Assembly: GCA_013619105.1 (NCBI GenBank)
Contig: JABXKU010000010.1
Coordinates: 1 to 49,163 of the forward strand
Source of the DNA: Desulfuromonadales bacterium
GTDB lineage: Bacteria > Desulfobacterota > Desulfuromonadia > Desulfuromonadales > Syntrophotaleaceae
Direction of reading: 5' to 3'
DNA length: 49,163 nucleotides
The position numbers were made by a program, and so were the translations under genes. The stretch's first letter is position 1. Each line of letters opens with the position of its first letter. The notes beneath the pieces were generated by a model. That model worked only from the letters and a program-made list of their open reading frames with translations, searched no databases and was not told the DNA's origin. This document shows positions 2,911 through 9,082 of the stretch, piece by piece.

Positions 2911-4572
2911 TTAGCCGAGAATTTCCTTAAGGTCTTCCTCTGCGGTTGTGATTGGCGCGATGTTGAAGTTTTCAACCAGAAAGTTAAGAACATTCGGGGT
3001 GATAAAGGCCGGCAATGTGGGACCGAGCTTGATGTTTTTGATACCAAGGTGGAGCAAGGTCAGTAGGATGACTACGGCCTTCTGCTCGTACCAGGAAAGG
3101 ATCATGCTCAGTGGCAAGTCATTGACTCCGCACTCAAAGGCCCCCGCCAGAGCAACGGCGATCTGAATGGCACTGTAGGCGTCATTGCACTGGCCGACGT
3201 CGAGCAGGCGCGGAATACCTCCGATGTCGCCGAAGTCGAGCTTGTTGAAGCGGTACTTGCCGCAGGCCAAGGTCAGAATCACACTGTCTTGGGGCACTTG
3301 CTCGGCGAACTCGGTGTAGTAATTGCGACCCGACTTAGCTCCGTCACAGCCGCCGATGAGGAAGAAGTGTTTGATGTCTCCGCCCTTAACCGCTGCGATG
3401 ACCTTGTCAGCTACGCCGAGGACCGCATTGTGGCCAAAGCCGACTAAAATTTCCTTACCGGGTGCTTCTGCTACATCGGGGCTGGCCAGGGCTTTGTCAA
3501 TAACTGCGCTGAAATCGAACCCGTCGATGTGGGTTACGTCGGGCCATGCGGTGCACCCCCAGGTGAAGAGACGATCTTTGTACGATTCAGCAGGCTTCTG
3601 AATGCAGTTGGTGTTGAAGATGATGGCTCCGGGGAACTGGGGCAACTCTTTAGCTTGATCTTGCCATGCGCCGCCGAAGTTTCCAGCCAGGTGAGCGTAC
3701 TTCTTCAGTCCAGGATAACCATGGGCAGGCAGCATTTCGCCGTGGGTGTAGACGTTAACACCTTTACCTTCGGTTTGCTTCAGTAGCTCAGCGAGCATCT
3801 TCAGATCATGACCGGAGACCAAGATCCCTTTGCCGGCTTTGGTGCCGGTATTAACCGGGGTCGGTACCGGGTGACCGTAGTGCTCAACATTACCCTCGTT
3901 GAGAATACCCATGGTAGTCAGGTTCTGTTTGCCACACTCCATGCTTAAAGTTACAAAGTCCATCAGCTCGAGGTCGGGATCGCAGGTAGCTGCCAGGGCC
4001 TTGTGATTAAAGGCCAGGACCTCGGCATCCGTCTTGCCGAGGATTTGAGCGTGGTCGGCGTAAGCGGCCATGCCTTTGAGTCCATAGATAAGGATCTCTA
4101 TGGCTGAACGGACATCGGGGTCGCTATGCAGGGTTTCGATACCGACCTGTTCTCCTTGCGTAACCAGATTCGCCGCAGGAGTCCAAGCCATAGGGCCTTT
4201 GCCGGCTACTTCAGCGCCAAAAAAAGCCTTGATACGGTCGAATAATGAGCTGCCCTGTTCATGACCGCCGGCCTTAAGAAACATCTCCCGGGCTTTGTCT
4301 TTCATGTGCCCACACTTCTGAATTACGGCAGTGAGATGCTTTGGGTCAAAATCGACGTTGGTTACGGTAGCGAATAGCCCTTCCAACATAAAAATGTCGA
4401 TGGCCGGATCCGTGGCGCCCAATTTTTCCGCTTCGCTGGCATAGCAGGCCAACCCGCGCAGGCCGTAGAGCAAATTGTCCTGTAGGGCTGCCACATCAGG
4501 CTGCTTACCGCATACGCCTACCTTGGTGCATCCGGTGCCTTTAGCGGTTTGCTCGCATTGATGACAGAACAT
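2911..4572 (-). CDS. hcp: Hybrid cluster protein (hydroxylamine/NO reductase)
   Basis: A cytoplasmic Fe-S protein with a hybrid [4Fe-2S-2O] cluster. The family reduces hydroxylamine in vitro and has an NO-detoxifying role in vivo. The 553-aa length and the N-terminal spacing C3-x2-C6-x8-C15-x5-C21 match the type found in strict anaerobes. Hybrid-cluster ligands are seen as the His and Glu in GHDLKML...THGEMLPAHGYP and the Cys residues in NTNCIQKP, GGCDGAKSGR, LACGKYRFNK and VGQCNDAYSA. The start ATG has AAAAGGAGATC upstream. It stands alone with its own terminator, and a strong FNR-family-type palindrome lies 99-124 bp before the start. Identity is firm. Confidence 0.97.
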   Translation of the reverse strand: MFCHQCEQTAKGTGCTKVGVCGKQPDVAALQDNLLYGLRGLACYASEAEKLGATDPAIDIFMLEGLFATVTNVDFDPKHLTAVIQKCGHMKDKAREMFLKAGGHEQGSSLFDRIKAFFGAEVAGKGPMAWTPAANLVTQGEQVGIETLHSDPDVRSAIEILIYGLKGMAAYADHAQILGKTDAEVLAFNHKALAATCDPDLELMDFVTLSMECGKQNLTTMGILNEGNVEHYGHPVPTPVNTGTKAGKGILVSGHDLKMLAELLKQTEGKGVNVYTHGEMLPAHGYPGLKKYAHLAGNFGGAWQDQAKELPQFPGAIIFNTNCIQKPAESYKDRLFTWGCTAWPDVTHIDGFDFSAVIDKALASPDVAEAPGKEILVGFGHNAVLGVADKVIAAVKGGDIKHFFLIGGCDGAKSGRNYYTEFAEQVPQDSVILTLACGKYRFNKLDFGDIGGIPRLLDVGQCNDAYSAIQIAVALAGAFECGVNDLPLSMILSWYEQKAVVILLTLLHLGIKNIKLGPTLPAFITPNVLNFLVENFNIAPITTAEEDLKEILG

Positions 4573-4739: not shown

Positions 4740-5350
4740 TTTTAGGATTGCCAATGTAAGGACTGCCACTCGTGGGGATATGAGCCGGAGTCGATAACCT
4801 CGCCCCCGATTACAGAGACAGTAACATGTGTAGATGGTCAATTGTTCGAAGTTTTGCATTGCAGCCCTTTGCTGACAGGGACTAGAGGCGACAGATGATA
4901 TATGAATTTGCGGCGTCGAGGGCAGTCGAAGTTCTTTGCTGATATCATCTTAGTGAAACAAAATCCAATGTATTCCCAATGATTGTCTTGTGGTTCTCAT
5001 TGCTCCCTTGTGTTGTTTCACGGAGGTAAATGCCTGAAAAAACTCTTCTTATAGGTTTATTAAGTTTCTTAGATAAAAATTCGGCAAAATTCTTGACCCC
5101 TCTAGAACAGCGTGCTATAGCATATGGCGGCTGCGTTATATTCAAAAAGAATAGCGCGGTTGGCGAGGCCTTCCTTGAGGGTTCCAGATGGTCCGCCGAG
5201 CTTAAGAGGTGTTCTGTGACCAGCATATAGGTGGTTGCGAGGGTCTCCTTGCTCTCCGATGTTTCTGTCGTTCGTCGGTTCGAATCCTCTGAATTTGTAC
5301 GCAACGTACCCTTCCTGTAGTAGACCATATTAACGGACAGAAATTTTTCT
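4740..5350. other. Gene-poor stretch of about 600 bp
   Basis: No gene is recognised on either strand. The longest frames (4945-5328 minus, 127 codons; 5030-5230 plus, 66 codons) overlap each other on opposite strands and have low-complexity, Ser/Thr/Glu-rich or unrecognisable products. The plus-strand frame has GGAGGTAA directly before its ATG, rather too close for a normal ribosome binding site. The segment may contain a long leader or promoter region for the operon at 5717, or decayed sequence. Confidence 0.4.
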
Positions 5351-5355
5351 GCGGG

Positions 5356-5386
5356 TCACATCTTGTCATGCGTAGCATGACTGTGA
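5356..5386 (+). other. Bulged hairpin in the leader region
   Basis: GTCATGC-GTA-GCATGAC forms a 7-bp stem with a 3-nt loop, extended on the outside by TCACA/TGTGA across a 4-nt bulge. It lies about 140 bp before the first aptamer-like element and has no T-run. It could be part of the operon leader RNA or a protein-binding dyad; nothing decides between these. Confidence 0.4.
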
Positions 5387-5518
5387 TGCTCGTGGGACAT
5401 GTCTTGGTGTGTAACGGGTACCAGATAGGTCGTGCTGGCGTCTGCCTGAATTGGCAACGTCGCTAGATGGTGATCATCGCATCCGTGCGTCCAAAATCCG
5501 TGAAATTTATCTTGATGT

Positions 5519-5604
5519 AAGCAGGTTGTTTGGTTCCGAGCCATGTGGGTGGCAGGAGTGGGCTGGAAAATTATGCCCTGAGCCGAACGGTATAATGTGT
5601 GCTT
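5519..5604 (+). promoter_or_regulatory. Candidate Mo/W-cofactor riboswitch, copy 1
   Basis: Closed by AAGCA/TGCTT, this element contains CCGAGCCA, GTGGGTGGCAGGAG, an inner GGGC/GCCC hairpin and TATGCCCTGAGCCGAA. The same blocks recur in the same order in the next element 20 nt downstream. From memory they resemble the conserved core of the Moco RNA motif (Rfam RF01055), which senses molybdenum or tungsten cofactor. This is recognition without a covariance-model search. A TATAAT sequence at 5591-5596 lies in its 3' part without a good -35 partner. Confidence 0.55.
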
Positions 5605-5623
5605 TGTATTTTGATTTAAGTAG

Positions 5624-5696
5624 TTTATGCGGCTCCGAGCCACGGTGGGTGGCGGGAGAATGCGGCAGTATCATGCCGTGAGTCTGTAAGCATAAA
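5624..5696 (+). promoter_or_regulatory. Candidate Mo/W-cofactor riboswitch, copy 2
   Basis: A perfect 7-bp closing stem, TTTATGC/GCATAAA, encloses CTCCGAGCCACGG, TGGGTGGCGGGAG, a hairpin GCGGCA/TGCCGT and ATGCCGTGAGTC. The element ends 5 nt before AGGAG and 20 nt before the ATG of the NuoE-like gene. There is no following T-run, so any control is more likely at translation initiation than at termination. Identity with the Moco motif is from remembered consensus; the tandem repetition of the conserved blocks is directly visible and supports a structured RNA. Confidence 0.6.
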
Positions 5697-5716
5697 AAAC
5701 AGGAGAGGAGAAGAAC

Positions 5717-6208
5717 ATGGCTGTTTGCAAGTGTACAGGCGAACATGTTGATTCGCCACAGGATTTACAACTGATGGAATTGCTCGGGGACTACCGCGGT
5801 TACGACGGTGGTTTGATTCCGGTGCTGCAGGGCGCGCAGGAGATTTTTGGCTACCTGCCCTCAGAAGTATTGGAAACGATATCCCAAGAGCTGACGATTC
5901 CCTTCAGCGAGGTCTACGGAGTCGTAACCTTTTATGCACAGTTCCACCTGAAGCCCCGTGGTCGTAATATTATCCGGGTCTGTCTAGGTACGGCCTGTCA
6001 CGTTCGTGGCGGATCGAAGATCTTTAATGGCCTCAAGGACATTCTGGGTGTTGGCGATGGCGGTACTACCGAAGATCTGCGTTTTACGCTGGAGTCGGTG
6101 GCCTGTATCGGTGCCTGCGGTCTGGCTCCGGTCATCATGATCAATGATGACACTCATGGCCGTTTGGAAGCGGTCGGTCTGGATACAATTCTGGAACAGT
6201 ACGCGTAG
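5717..6208 (+). CDS. NuoE/HydC-like [2Fe-2S] diaphorase subunit
   Basis: A 163-aa thioredoxin-fold [2Fe-2S] protein. It is the small subunit of NADH-oxidising modules in complex I, bifurcating [FeFe]-hydrogenases and NAD-dependent formate dehydrogenases. The cluster ligands are the two Cys of VCLGTACHVRGG and the two of VACIGACGLAPV. The N-terminal half has the usual helical stretch ending GYLPSEVLETIS. The ATG has AGGAGAGGAG upstream. It is the first gene of a three-gene operon, 10 nt ahead of the NuoF-like gene, and lies behind the tandem aptamer-like elements. The partner genes favour the soluble hydrogenase or formate dehydrogenase type over complex I. Confidence 0.9.
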   Translation: MAVCKCTGEHVDSPQDLQLMELLGDYRGYDGGLIPVLQGAQEIFGYLPSEVLETISQELTIPFSEVYGVVTFYAQFHLKPRGRNIIRVCLGTACHVRGGSKIFNGLKDILGVGDGGTTEDLRFTLESVACIGACGLAPVIMINDDTHGRLEAVGLDTILEQYA

Positions 6209-6218
6209 GGGGGAAAAG

Positions 6219-8069
6219 ATGGGTACATTAAAGGATCATCGCTCCAGTATAGAGGAGCAACACACCAAAAAAATGGAACGTTCTCGGATTGTTGTCGGTC
6301 TGGGAACTTGTGGTATAGCCGCCGGTGGCAACAAAGTCATGGCGGCCATTCGGGGTGAAGTTGAAAGCCGCGGTCTGGACGTAGACGTAGATTTCACCAG
6401 CTGCATCGGCATGTGTTATGCGGAGCCGGTGGTGGAAATGTCCCTACCCGGTGCTGCCAGCGTCGTCTACGGGGGAGTATACCCCGAGAATGTTGCGAAG
6501 CTGATCGAAGGCCACCTGGTCAACAAGATCCCGGTCACCGATATGGCGGAGATTCAGGTTGTAGGTGCAGGCGTTCCCTATGAGGGAATCCCTGTCATGG
6601 AGAAATCGACCTATTACGAGAAGCAGATCCGCTCGGTAACCTCTCGCCTTGGTCGGACCAATCCAGAAAGAATCGAAGATTACATTGCTACCGGTGGTTA
6701 TGCCGGCATTGAAAAAGCTCTGACCATGGAGCCCCAGGAGATCATCAACGAAGTTAAGATCTCAGGCCTGCGGGGCCGTGGAGGCGGTGGTTTTCCCACC
6801 GGCACCAAATGGCAGTTCGTGTCCGACGCCGTAGGAGACAAAAAATACATTGTCTGCAACGCCGACGAAGGGGATCCGGGCGCTTTTATGGACCGAAGCA
6901 TTTTGGAGGGCGATCCCCATGCCATCATGGAAGGGATGATGATCGCCGGCTATGCCATTGGGGCTGACGAAGGCATCATCTACTGCCGTGCTGAATACCC
7001 GCTAGCTATTAGCCGGTTGAATCTTGCCATTGAAAAAGCCGAAGCGATGGGGATTCTGGGCAACAATATCCTTGGCAGCGAATTCAACTTCAAGATTCGG
7101 ATCAAGGCCGGTGCTGGTGCTTTTGTTTGCGGCGAAGAAACTGCGCTGCTCAATTCCATCGAAGGCTATCGCGGAACGCCGCGGGTCCGGCCGCCGTTTC
7201 CGGCGCACAAGGGTCTGTGGCAGAAACCGACCTGTCTGAACAACGTGGAAAGCTTCGCTAATATCCCCTTCATCGTCCGCAACGGCGGGGCATGGTATGC
7301 CTCCATGGGGACGGAGAAGAGCAAGGGTAGCAAGGTGTTTTGCCTCACCGGCAATATCAATAACACCGGCCTGGCTGAAGTCCCCATGGGCATCACCCTG
7401 CGGGAAATCGTCTACGATATTGCCGGCGGTATTTTAGAAGGCAGAAAATTCAAGGCGGTACAGAGCGGCGGGCCTTCCGGCGGTTGTCTCCCCGCGGACC
7501 AACTCGACCTTCCCATCGATTACGACTCTCTGATCGGCGCGGGCGCCATGATGGGTTCCGGCGGTCTGGTGGTTATGGACGAAACCACCTGTATGGTGGA
7601 TATGGCGAGATTCTTTTTGAACTTTACCCAGCTTGAGTCTTGCGGCAAATGTACGCCCTGCCGGGAAGGCACCAAGCGGATGCTGGAAATTCTTGAGCGC
7701 ATTTGTGAAGGCCTCGGGGGACCCAACGACATCGAGACCCTCGAGCGCTTAGCTAAGGTTATCAAGAGCTCGGCTCTGTGCGCGTTGGGGCAGACAGCAC
7801 CGAACCCGGTTCTGACTACTTTGCGTTACTTCCGTGATGAGTACGAGGCCCACATCAACGATAAGCGTTGTCCGGCAGGGTTGTGTGCTGAACTGCTGAC
7901 CTTCACTGTTAATGACAGGTGCGTGGGCTGCGGAGTCTGTATCAAGGCCTGCCCTGTTAACGCCATTAGCGGCGAGAAGAAGGCCGTGCATGTCATTGAT
8001 CCTGAGGCCTGCATCAAGTGTGGTGCCTGCGTACCCAAGTGCAAGTTCGACGCTATCGTGAAGGCGTGA
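6219..8069 (+). CDS. NuoF/HydB-like NADH-binding flavoprotein subunit
   Basis: The NADH/FMN subunit of a soluble diaphorase, 616 aa from the ATG at 6219 (AGGGGGG upstream). Three parts are visible. An N-terminal thioredoxin-like [2Fe-2S] domain has LGTCGIAAGGNK and SCIGMCYAEP. A NuoF core has GLRGRGGGGFPTGTKW, CNADEGDPGAFMDR and GAGAFVCGEETALLNS, then the 4Fe-4S site ESCGKCTPCREG with a later Cys in SALCALG. A C-terminal ferredoxin domain has two 4Fe-4S motifs, CVGCGVCIKACP and CIKCGACVPKC. This Trx-NuoF-2xFd order is that of HydB/HndC of electron-bifurcating enzymes, not of plain complex I NuoF. The protein would pass electrons between NAD(H) and the third subunit. Confidence 0.93.
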   Translation: MGTLKDHRSSIEEQHTKKMERSRIVVGLGTCGIAAGGNKVMAAIRGEVESRGLDVDVDFTSCIGMCYAEPVVEMSLPGAASVVYGGVYPENVAKLIEGHLVNKIPVTDMAEIQVVGAGVPYEGIPVMEKSTYYEKQIRSVTSRLGRTNPERIEDYIATGGYAGIEKALTMEPQEIINEVKISGLRGRGGGGFPTGTKWQFVSDAVGDKKYIVCNADEGDPGAFMDRSILEGDPHAIMEGMMIAGYAIGADEGIIYCRAEYPLAISRLNLAIEKAEAMGILGNNILGSEFNFKIRIKAGAGAFVCGEETALLNSIEGYRGTPRVRPPFPAHKGLWQKPTCLNNVESFANIPFIVRNGGAWYASMGTEKSKGSKVFCLTGNINNTGLAEVPMGITLREIVYDIAGGILEGRKFKAVQSGGPSGGCLPADQLDLPIDYDSLIGAGAMMGSGGLVVMDETTCMVDMARFFLNFTQLESCGKCTPCREGTKRMLEILERICEGLGGPNDIETLERLAKVIKSSALCALGQTAPNPVLTTLRYFRDEYEAHINDKRCPAGLCAELLTFTVNDRCVGCGVCIKACPVNAISGEKKAVHVIDPEACIKCGACVPKCKFDAIVKA

Positions 8070-8164
8070 TCATCTGTACCTGATAAGGATTATTCTTGTC
8101 GTACTGGTTTTCTCAAACGTAAAGAAAATTTTAAGTCTTGCGAGACTGGAAGGAGGTAACTCCA

Positions 8165-9082
8165 TTGTCTACTGTTACTCTTACCATAAATAGTCAAGAG
8201 GTCACGGTTCCAAAGGGCAGCACCGTGCTGGATGCTGCTGTGGGAGCTGGTTTTTTTATTCCGACATTTTGTCATGACCCCATTTATGCAGGTTATGGCG
8301 GCTGCCGCATCTGTATCGTCGATATCAAAGGTGCCAGAAACCTGCCTGCCTCATGCGTTACTGCTGCGGCAGACGGAATGATTGTCGAAACCGAGTCCGC
8401 GCCTGTTGTAGAAGCCCGGAAGACGATTATTGAGTTGATGCTGGCCAATCACCCGGTGGATTGTATGACCTGCGAGAAGTGCGGCGACTGCCGCCTGCAG
8501 GATTACGCCTTTCGCTATGGTGTGGAGTCTGCCGGATTTGGTGGCGAAAGAAAAGACTACGAGTTTGATACCACAAATCCGTACATTAATCGGAACATGA
8601 ACAAATGTATTCTCTGCGGTAAATGTGTCAGAACCTGCAAGGGTGCCGAGGACAGAGCTGTTATCGATTTTACTTTTCGTGGGTTTGATACCAAGGTGGC
8701 GCCGGCTCTAGATTCAAGCCTAGCGGAATCGGCCTGTGTTTCCTGTTCCCGTTGTGTGTCGGTTTGCCCGGTAGGAGCTCTGACCGATAAGCCTCTCGGT
8801 GGAAAAGCCAGAGCTTGGGAAGTAGTCAAAGAAGAGGTGACCTGCACTTGGTGTGACGCCGGTTGTCTGTTTGATTTAGTTCGCAAAAACGGTGAGGTTA
8901 TCGGCGTAGCAGCCAAAGCTCCTGCCGGCGGACGCCCTCTGTGTCTCAAGGGGCGTCTTGGTCTGGAACTTCGTTACAACGATAAACCGCTCAAGCCGAT
9001 GTTGAAAAAGGATGACCAGTATGTCGAGGTCTCCTGGACCGAGGCTTTGGGGCTGGATGAAATTCTGGAAAAATTGAATTAG
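8165..9082 (+). CDS. NuoG-N-like Fe-S subunit ending in a partial molybdo-oxidoreductase domain
   Basis: The 305-aa product starts at TTG 8165, which has AAGGAGG 8 nt upstream; the upstream in-frame TTG at 8138 has none. Visible in order: a [2Fe-2S] plant-type ferredoxin domain (FCHDPIYAGYGGCRICIV...SC), the His-Cys3 4Fe-4S site HPVDCMTCEKCGDC, two 4Fe-4S motifs CILCGKCVRTC and CVSCSRCVSVCP, then the N-terminal 4Fe-4S domain of formate dehydrogenase-type molybdoenzymes (VTCTWCDAGC...RPLCLKGR). The frame stops 20-odd residues after VSWTEALG, where a formate dehydrogenase would go on for 500 or more residues including its Sec/Cys site. It is either a stand-alone electron-transfer subunit (HylA/HydA-like without active site) or a truncated fdhA. 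Confidence 0.85.
   Translation: MSTVTLTINSQEVTVPKGSTVLDAAVGAGFFIPTFCHDPIYAGYGGCRICIVDIKGARNLPASCVTAAADGMIVETESAPVVEARKTIIELMLANHPVDCMTCEKCGDCRLQDYAFRYGVESAGFGGERKDYEFDTTNPYINRNMNKCILCGKCVRTCKGAEDRAVIDFTFRGFDTKVAPALDSSLAESACVSCSRCVSVCPVGALTDKPLGGKARAWEVVKEEVTCTWCDAGCLFDLVRKNGEVIGVAAKAPAGGRPLCLKGRLGLELRYNDKPLKPMLKKDDQYVEVSWTEALGLDEILEKLN

Follow-up and report, generated by a model that had tools for sequence, protein, structure and literature searches.

A tandemly duplicated leader element without an Rfam match precedes a nuoEF-type NADH-module operon in a Desulfuromonadales bacterium

The nuoG RNA motif (RF01748) is a candidate leader of an NADH-dehydrogenase-type gene. It has been tabulated for Enterobacteriales (PMC2864571). 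The Moco RNA is described as having as many as five helices (P1-P5), with a GNRA tetraloop, mostly GAAA, that closes P4 and has its receptor in P2, and its occurrence in tandem has been described in S. wolfei and G. metallireducens (PMC2408646). A comparable gene cluster, hndA4BC4 of Pelobacter carbinolicus, has been proposed, together with a Fe-S protein, as the partner of Hcp (PMC3543383).

The window (the whole stretch of 49,163 nucleotides analysed here, from a 3.3 Mb Desulfuromonadales genome that is 99.44% complete) encodes a related module on its plus strand. The first gene (5717..6208) encodes a nuoE-like thioredoxin-like [2Fe-2S] subunit of 163 amino acids (NF005722 above cut-off, PF01257) and the second (6219..8069) a nuoF-like NADH/FMN subunit of 616 amino acids with C-terminal 4Fe-4S domains (NF010120 above cut-off, TIGR01959 below cut-off, PF01512, PF10589). 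The third (8138..9082) encodes a Fe-S protein of 314 amino acids that, by its domain profiles, resembles the N-terminal part of NuoG/FdhA and is without the molybdopterin domain. The operon is thus nuoE-nuoF-FeS, an NADH module without a molybdo-subunit, as an initial sequence-only reading had described it. The gene for the hybrid cluster protein, hcp (2911..4572, minus strand; NF003658, 804 bits), is a divergent neighbour. It also adjoins the operon in the congener G002, where it is again divergent, and in the relative G006, whose gene arrangement appears to fit that of P. carbinolicus. Features in common with hndA4BC4 are an NAD(P)H module, a Fe-S protein beside it that is like a non-catalytic formate dehydrogenase part, and hcp in the vicinity; unlike here, no leader element is mentioned for hndA4BC4 in the available passages of the source (PMC3543383).

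Two copies of a leader element were identified upstream of nuoE on the plus strand, confirming that two elements carry the same blocks in the same order. The proximal copy, E2 (5624..5696), is defined by its fold relative to shuffled sequences, by pair counts, and by homologues in G002 and at two loci of G197, a genome of another family. The distal copy, E1 (5525..5596, core 5528-5588), is defined by its fold, by its presence in G002 and by a covariance model built from E2 only, which recovers E1 with 27.0 bits (E 6.8e-6 in the 49-kb window, E 4.6e-4 in the whole genome). No matches beyond E1 and E2 were found when the whole genome was searched with this model at E<=1. The limits first proposed for the second copy are kept, whereas those for the first (5519-5604) are corrected to the ones given above. 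E2 ends at 5696, 5 nt before the Shine-Dalgarno sequence GGAGAGGAG of nuoE (5702..5710, plus strand), a spacing that had been read correctly from the outset. The same Shine-Dalgarno text precedes nuoE in several orthologues, and the E2-type position near it is also found in G002 and G197. This is a riboswitch-type location in a predicted leader, the transcription of which is assumed.

Direct repeats were located at 5495-5543/5594-5642 (71% identical) and 5545-5582/5645-5682 (74%), with spacings of 99 and 100 nt. Because the similarity extends into the linker preceding each element, these represent a tandem duplication of two ~99 bp units (5495..5692, plus strand, outer limits approximate), which is more than two aptamers. 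The blocks first described as conserved are repeated in both window copies. One of them, GTGGGTGGC, does not hold family-wide, as the same stretch is AGAAGGGC in the single-copy relatives, where the blocks kept are GGCTCCGAG, GGC-GGGAG, GCGGC and GTGAG-CTG. Conserved residues are concentrated at the junction (CUCCGAG, GGGAG).

The repeated blocks had been likened to the Moco RNA motif, an assignment that the profile searches do not sustain. A cmscan search against 4227 Rfam families returned no match in the leader at gathering score, nor at E<=10 (5330-5760). The RF01055 search suggested by the sequence-only reading, run over the whole genome at E<=10, matched seven places, four of them above the membership cut-off (>=36 bits) and none at E1/E2, and the Moco-II model (RF01713) likewise matched seven places at E<=10, three of them above its cut-off (>=35 bits) and none at E1/E2. 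The four Moco RNAs sit on four contigs, and the three Moco-II RNAs lie inside 2.3 kb (G000:C185:29777-32060). The nuoG RNA, likewise a candidate leader of an NADH-dehydrogenase-type gene, is tabulated for Enterobacteriales and gave no cmscan match at this leader. The element is a leader without an Rfam match.

Structure separates E1/E2 from the Moco RNA as well. Both are multi-stem leaders before redox genes, but E1 and E2 have at most three short helices (P1-P3) in ~72 nt, compared with up to five in a model of 135 positions, and the Shine-Dalgarno sequence lies outside P1. The GNRA (mostly GAAA) tetraloop was not found among the hairpin loops, which are GGUGG and GUAUCA in E2, and GUGG and an 11-nt loop in E1. 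These differences, together with the absent cmscan, RF01055 and RF01713 matches, rule against membership in the Moco RNA family. A degenerate Moco/Tuco riboswitch would be consistent with the published tandem Moco RNAs and with the formate dehydrogenase encoded in relatives of the operon, and when two of the genome's four Moco RNAs were read by eye, one shared CTCCGAGCC with the elements (the other had CTCCGA alone). We nevertheless consider this reading very improbable, given the lack of matches at E<=10, the three helices and the missing tetraloop. Against it, too, are the fused formate-dehydrogenase relatives, which have a Moco-II RNA of their own, and one leader of G197 in which Moco-II (L166:1293-1338) and the new element (1501-1566) are distinct from each other. 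The false Moco-riboswitch call is removed, and in its place stands a defined leader element with homologues and a testable structure.

Related operons are of two types. In the stand-alone type (the window, L061, L062, L063, L191, L202, L203, L205 and L206), the Fe-S protein is separate and ~305-314 amino acids long. In the fused type (L064, L065, L204 and L190), the Fe-S part runs into the catalytic part of a formate dehydrogenase, with an in-frame TGA in 4/4 cases. The third-gene protein of the window is 69-80% identical to that of eight stand-alone relatives and 54-62% identical to that of the four fused ones. A separate fdhA with TGA follows the stand-alone module at three of the nine loci (L191:2528-5299, L202:287-2995 and L206:111-2789; the in-frame TGA is where selenocysteine is expected). 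In some relatives selA, selB or tRNA-Sec lie nearby, for which reason a SECIS/SelB-type hairpin was considered as a conceivable reading of the leader, as were CsrA-type GGA sites. The molybdo-enzyme link is thus absent from the window operon itself and appears in relatives as a formate dehydrogenase that is either fused (four loci) or adjoining (3/9).

Like the new element, Moco-II precedes an NADH module, in its case in the fused NADH-formate dehydrogenase operons of relatives. It differs from the element in that its model spans 46 positions and has one main hairpin, in that a terminator-like hairpin comes after it in those relatives, and in giving no match before the window operon. Moco-II was identified in 4/4 fused-operon leaders (L064, L065, L204 and L192, the last on a contig that ends in nuoE and counted by inference as the fused operon of G197 because mobB/selA lie upstream). 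It is absent from 8/8 stand-alone leaders (the window, L061, L062, L063, L202, L203, L205, with a leader of only 156 nt, and L206), and also from L181, L080 and L070, in which the third gene is not seen. Thus, there is a clean split among the loci seen, with Moco-II before the fused operons and none before the stand-alone NADH module, and the molybdenum cofactor is probably not what controls the stand-alone module. The five Moco-II matches are at L064:3123-3167, L065:5369-5416 and 5869-5914 (two copies), L204:5679-5724 and L192:5900-5945. In the four nearest copies, the 3' text CGAAACCCG doubles as the 5' arm of a hairpin that is strong (folds of -25.9 to -33.2 kcal/mol) and has a T run behind it, likely a terminator-type expression platform.

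We predict that each element folds as a closing stem P1 around hairpins P2 and P3. In E2 these are P1a (5624-5630/5690-5696), P1b (5631-5635/5680-5684), P2 (5639-5643/5649-5653) and P3 (5663-5667/5674-5678), and in E1 they are P1 (5528-5536/5580-5588), P2 (5540-5544/5549-5553) and P3 (5560-5563/5575-5578), all on the plus strand. The fold of E2 is stronger than expected from shuffles (5615-5705, z -3.5, 0/200 as good; 5624-5696, z -2.7, 3/200), and that of E1 is weak by the same measure (5512-5610, z -1.1, 31/200; 5519-5604, z -1.5, 12/200). In an alignment of six sequences from three genomes, which was fitted to the model, 93.0% of cells are paired in the three-helix structure, as opposed to 35-45% with the partners slid. 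Two-sided changes occur in four pairs (two in P1a and two in P3). The covariation score was reached by 9/500 shuffles and the number of two-sided pairs by 154/500, so support from covariation is modest.

The outer stem proposed for each copy fares less well than the hairpins. P1 can form in both copies, but RNAalifold, unaided, selects P3 and P2 with a CUCC/GGAG extension (5633-5636 with 5655-5658 in E2, plus strand) and leaves P1 unchosen. Compensatory changes in the closing stems, which the sequence-only reading had taken as decisive alongside a covariance-model match, are mixed: two of the seven P1a pairs show two-sided changes and P1b shows none (three of its five pairs are invariant and two change on one side to G-U), and the match itself is absent. 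P1a is the weakest helix, as it is paired in 85.7% of cells and its 3' strand resembles text in leaders without the element. For the two G197 leaders (L166 and L176) folded with their flanks, the best single-sequence fold differs from the model structure. P1b (GGCUC/GAGCC) and the P2 extension are mutually exclusive, and both can pair in 6/6 sequences.

The stem variants bear on whether the element acts as RNA or as DNA. One-sided variants in the stems are mostly G-U (14 cells, against 2 with A-C). Read as plus-strand RNA, 119 of 128 cells can pair, and read as the other strand, 107; this tolerance of G-U favours a plus-strand RNA. Duplicated operator or promoter DNA, with the true transcription start near the Shine-Dalgarno sequence, would account for a duplication that takes in the linker as well as the element, for a GCCAC/GTGGC palindrome, and for the TACAAT that precedes the Shine-Dalgarno sequence in G006, G011, G194 and G198. 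However, TACAAT is missing in the window, G002 and G197, a sigma-70 scan found no promoter, and P2 and the loop of P3 vary in length while the foot of each stem is kept. With the strand preference of the variants added, we regard a DNA-level element as quite unlikely, and action as RNA in some form, taken over explanations that overlap, as likely.

We searched for nuoE at E<=1e-55 in 277 genomes of the class (16 places in 14 genomes) and at E<=1e-60 in 136 genomes of the order (6/136). L166 and L176 were added via the RNA model; both end in a nuoE fragment at the contig end. Two of the resulting 18 orthologous loci (L194 and L197) are without leader sequence, leaving 16 readable leaders. Clear matches are present in four of these, both copies in the window and G002 and one copy each in L166 and L176, so that the element is clear in 3/277 class genomes. 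Against the E2-only model (R1), the G002 copies score 102.1 and 30.2 bits. A model of four sequences (R2) found the two G197 homologues, both of which immediately precede a nuoE start (E 9.4e-11 and 4.5e-9). Comparison of the leaders of homologous operons, as had been proposed, thus places the element before nuoE in both G002 and G197. A further two leaders have weak matches, on the right strand and directly before nuoE (G011, 16.3 bits, E 0.083; G006, 14.0 bits, E 0.58), and these were the only two matches when a model of six sequences (R3) was run over 38 loci (296 kb) at E<=10. No match was found in the other 10 of the 16 readable leaders, and hence most relatives with the operon are without a recognisable element. 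By eye, G194 and G198 (no match) share the flanks CTCCG and AAACATACAATAAAACCGGAGAGGAG, and in the stand-alone copy of G010 (no match) a hairpin, GACGGTAC/GTGCCGT, lies where P3 would be. The leaders and gene starts of L166 and L176 are nearly identical, as from a recent duplication or gene conversion, and by eye this likeness weakens immediately upstream of the element.

With R2 and R3 over the 277 class genomes, under strict filters with which weak matches are lost, strong matches were confined to the window genome, G002 and G197, and all others had E>=0.002. Nothing other than the window genome fell below E 0.009 in a phylum sample of 395 genomes. An exact pattern was found only in the window genome among 58 relatives; G002 escapes it through a single change in either copy. 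Besides these two genomes, R1 gave six weak matches in the 58 relatives (E 0.009-0.47), one of them, in L071, inside an open frame. R2 gave nine weak extras in the class (E 0.0095-0.041) and three in the phylum sample (E 0.009-0.042), and R3 five weak class matches (E 0.002-0.005), three at earlier places and one overlapping an earlier one. All of these we treated as chance. Broader nuoE loci number at least 80, mostly from Firmicutes (e.g., Carboxydothermus at 71%); R1 on 32 of them (L079-L110) and R3 on 22 (L080-L101) found no match before nuoE except in L079, which shows the match of G011. R1 also gave a weak match in L096 (E 7), ~2.8 kb upstream of its nuoE. The pattern CCGAGCCAN{0,6}GTGGGTGGC occurred in 24 stretches of viral contigs, about the number expected by chance from a rough estimate, and was set aside. 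On the genomes compared, the element appears to be lineage-restricted and present in few relatives. We found no earlier description of it in the literature searched, in which subscription journals are thinly covered.

Leaders that bind proteins are more often narrowly distributed than riboswitches are. The element is small, has three short helices and is found in few genomes, in each case before nuoE; this was counted towards recognition by an RNA-binding protein, be it an operon product that regulates its own operon or a global regulator, instead of a ligand-sensing riboswitch. No candidate partner protein was identified, however, and the clustering of conserved residues at the junction would also fit an aptamer. 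We consider a protein site possible, if somewhat doubtful; it overlaps with the explanation that we prefer, a lineage-restricted cis-regulatory leader RNA that was duplicated in one genus and acts on nuoEF translation. That explanation we hold to be moderately probable.

Comparison of the window with G002 gives a measure of constraint. The nuoE genes differ at 16/492 nt (11 of 85 fourfold sites) and encode identical proteins (163/163). The leaders differ at 17/421 positions: 9/225 upstream, 6/72 in E1, 0/27 in the linker, 2/73 in E2 and 0/24 in the Shine-Dalgarno stretch. Relative to fourfold sites, the leader as a whole is constrained (Fisher p 0.003), as is E2 (p 0.02), and E1 is indistinguishable from them (p 0.44); E2 does not differ from the upstream leader (2/73 versus 9/225, p 1.0). 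The contrast of E1 and E2 with fourfold sites, and the single copy before each nuoE in G197, would fit a reading in which only E2 works and E1 is a decaying by-product of the genus-level tandem duplication, a prospect that we place somewhat short of even and that is compatible with the preferred explanation. Yet the difference between E1 and E2 is not significant (p 0.17), the score of E1 on the E2-only model is not reduced in G002 (30.2 bits, versus 27.0 in the window), and the E1 changes at 5563 and 5576 jointly preserve the four-pair P3 helix by a one-base slip.

As a cis-regulatory leader RNA, the element would be transcribed within the mRNA and would control translation initiation, since the proximal copy ends so close to the Shine-Dalgarno sequence and a terminator scan found nothing between the element and the gene. 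The conserved CUC may pair either with GGAG between the hairpins (the P2 extension) or with the GAG of P1b; because both helices are kept in 6/6 sequences, the core could be bistable. The distal copy, derived from the ~99-bp duplication, could contribute to control, conceivably in the steeper or two-input manner first suggested, or could be a relic.

A possible output was seen in folds that extend into the gene. When 25 nt of the gene are included, the best fold of both the window and G002 has the P1 3' strand and the AAACAG after it paired with codons 2-8, so that the ribosome site and the start codon are enclosed; the closing-pair probability is 1.0 (0.60-0.86 with 40-60 nt, where the partners may differ). 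With 41 nt, the best E2 fold retains P1a and the start-codon hairpin changes. The closing-pair probability elsewhere is 0.01-0.6 in the G197 leaders, 0.06-0.32 in G011 and G194, 0.92-0.96 in G006 (longer stretches) and 0.98 in G198 (60 nt only). The hairpin competes with P1 and could be an off state. Its prediction varies with the length of sequence that is folded, and the G197 leaders do not show it; within the genus it may serve as an expression platform, though not as a conserved one. The mean unpaired probability of the Shine-Dalgarno sequence in 14 leaders depends on length and does not separate leaders with the element from those without it. Pairing of CUCC with the Shine-Dalgarno sequence was rejected, as it involves four pairs only and is not among the partners in the folds.

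The input may be a metabolite, an ion or a protein. Our guess would be a signal of NADH/formate electron flow, not the molybdenum cofactor, because the element precedes the NADH module whether or not a formate dehydrogenase is linked to it. That the element is a new class of riboswitch with a ligand of its own we think unlikely, and we judge likewise the specific form of this reading, in which tandem aptamers in one genus would sense a metabolite of NADH/formate flow, CUC would choose between two GAG partners, and P1 would compete with the start-codon hairpin. If the element does answer a ligand, it would offer a way into the sensing of NADH/formate electron flow by such bacteria.

Other sequences in the intergenic region may also have regulatory roles. 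At 5485-5500 of the window, 24 nt before E1, is GTGCGTC-N4-ATCCG, possibly part of a promoter or operator, and similar texts (GTGCGYC-N4-WTCCG) occur in the leaders of L176, L196 and L198. Between hcp and nuoE (5365-5381) lies a perfect palindrome, GTCATGC-GTA-GCATGAC, a possible regulator site, which G002 carries with one central change.
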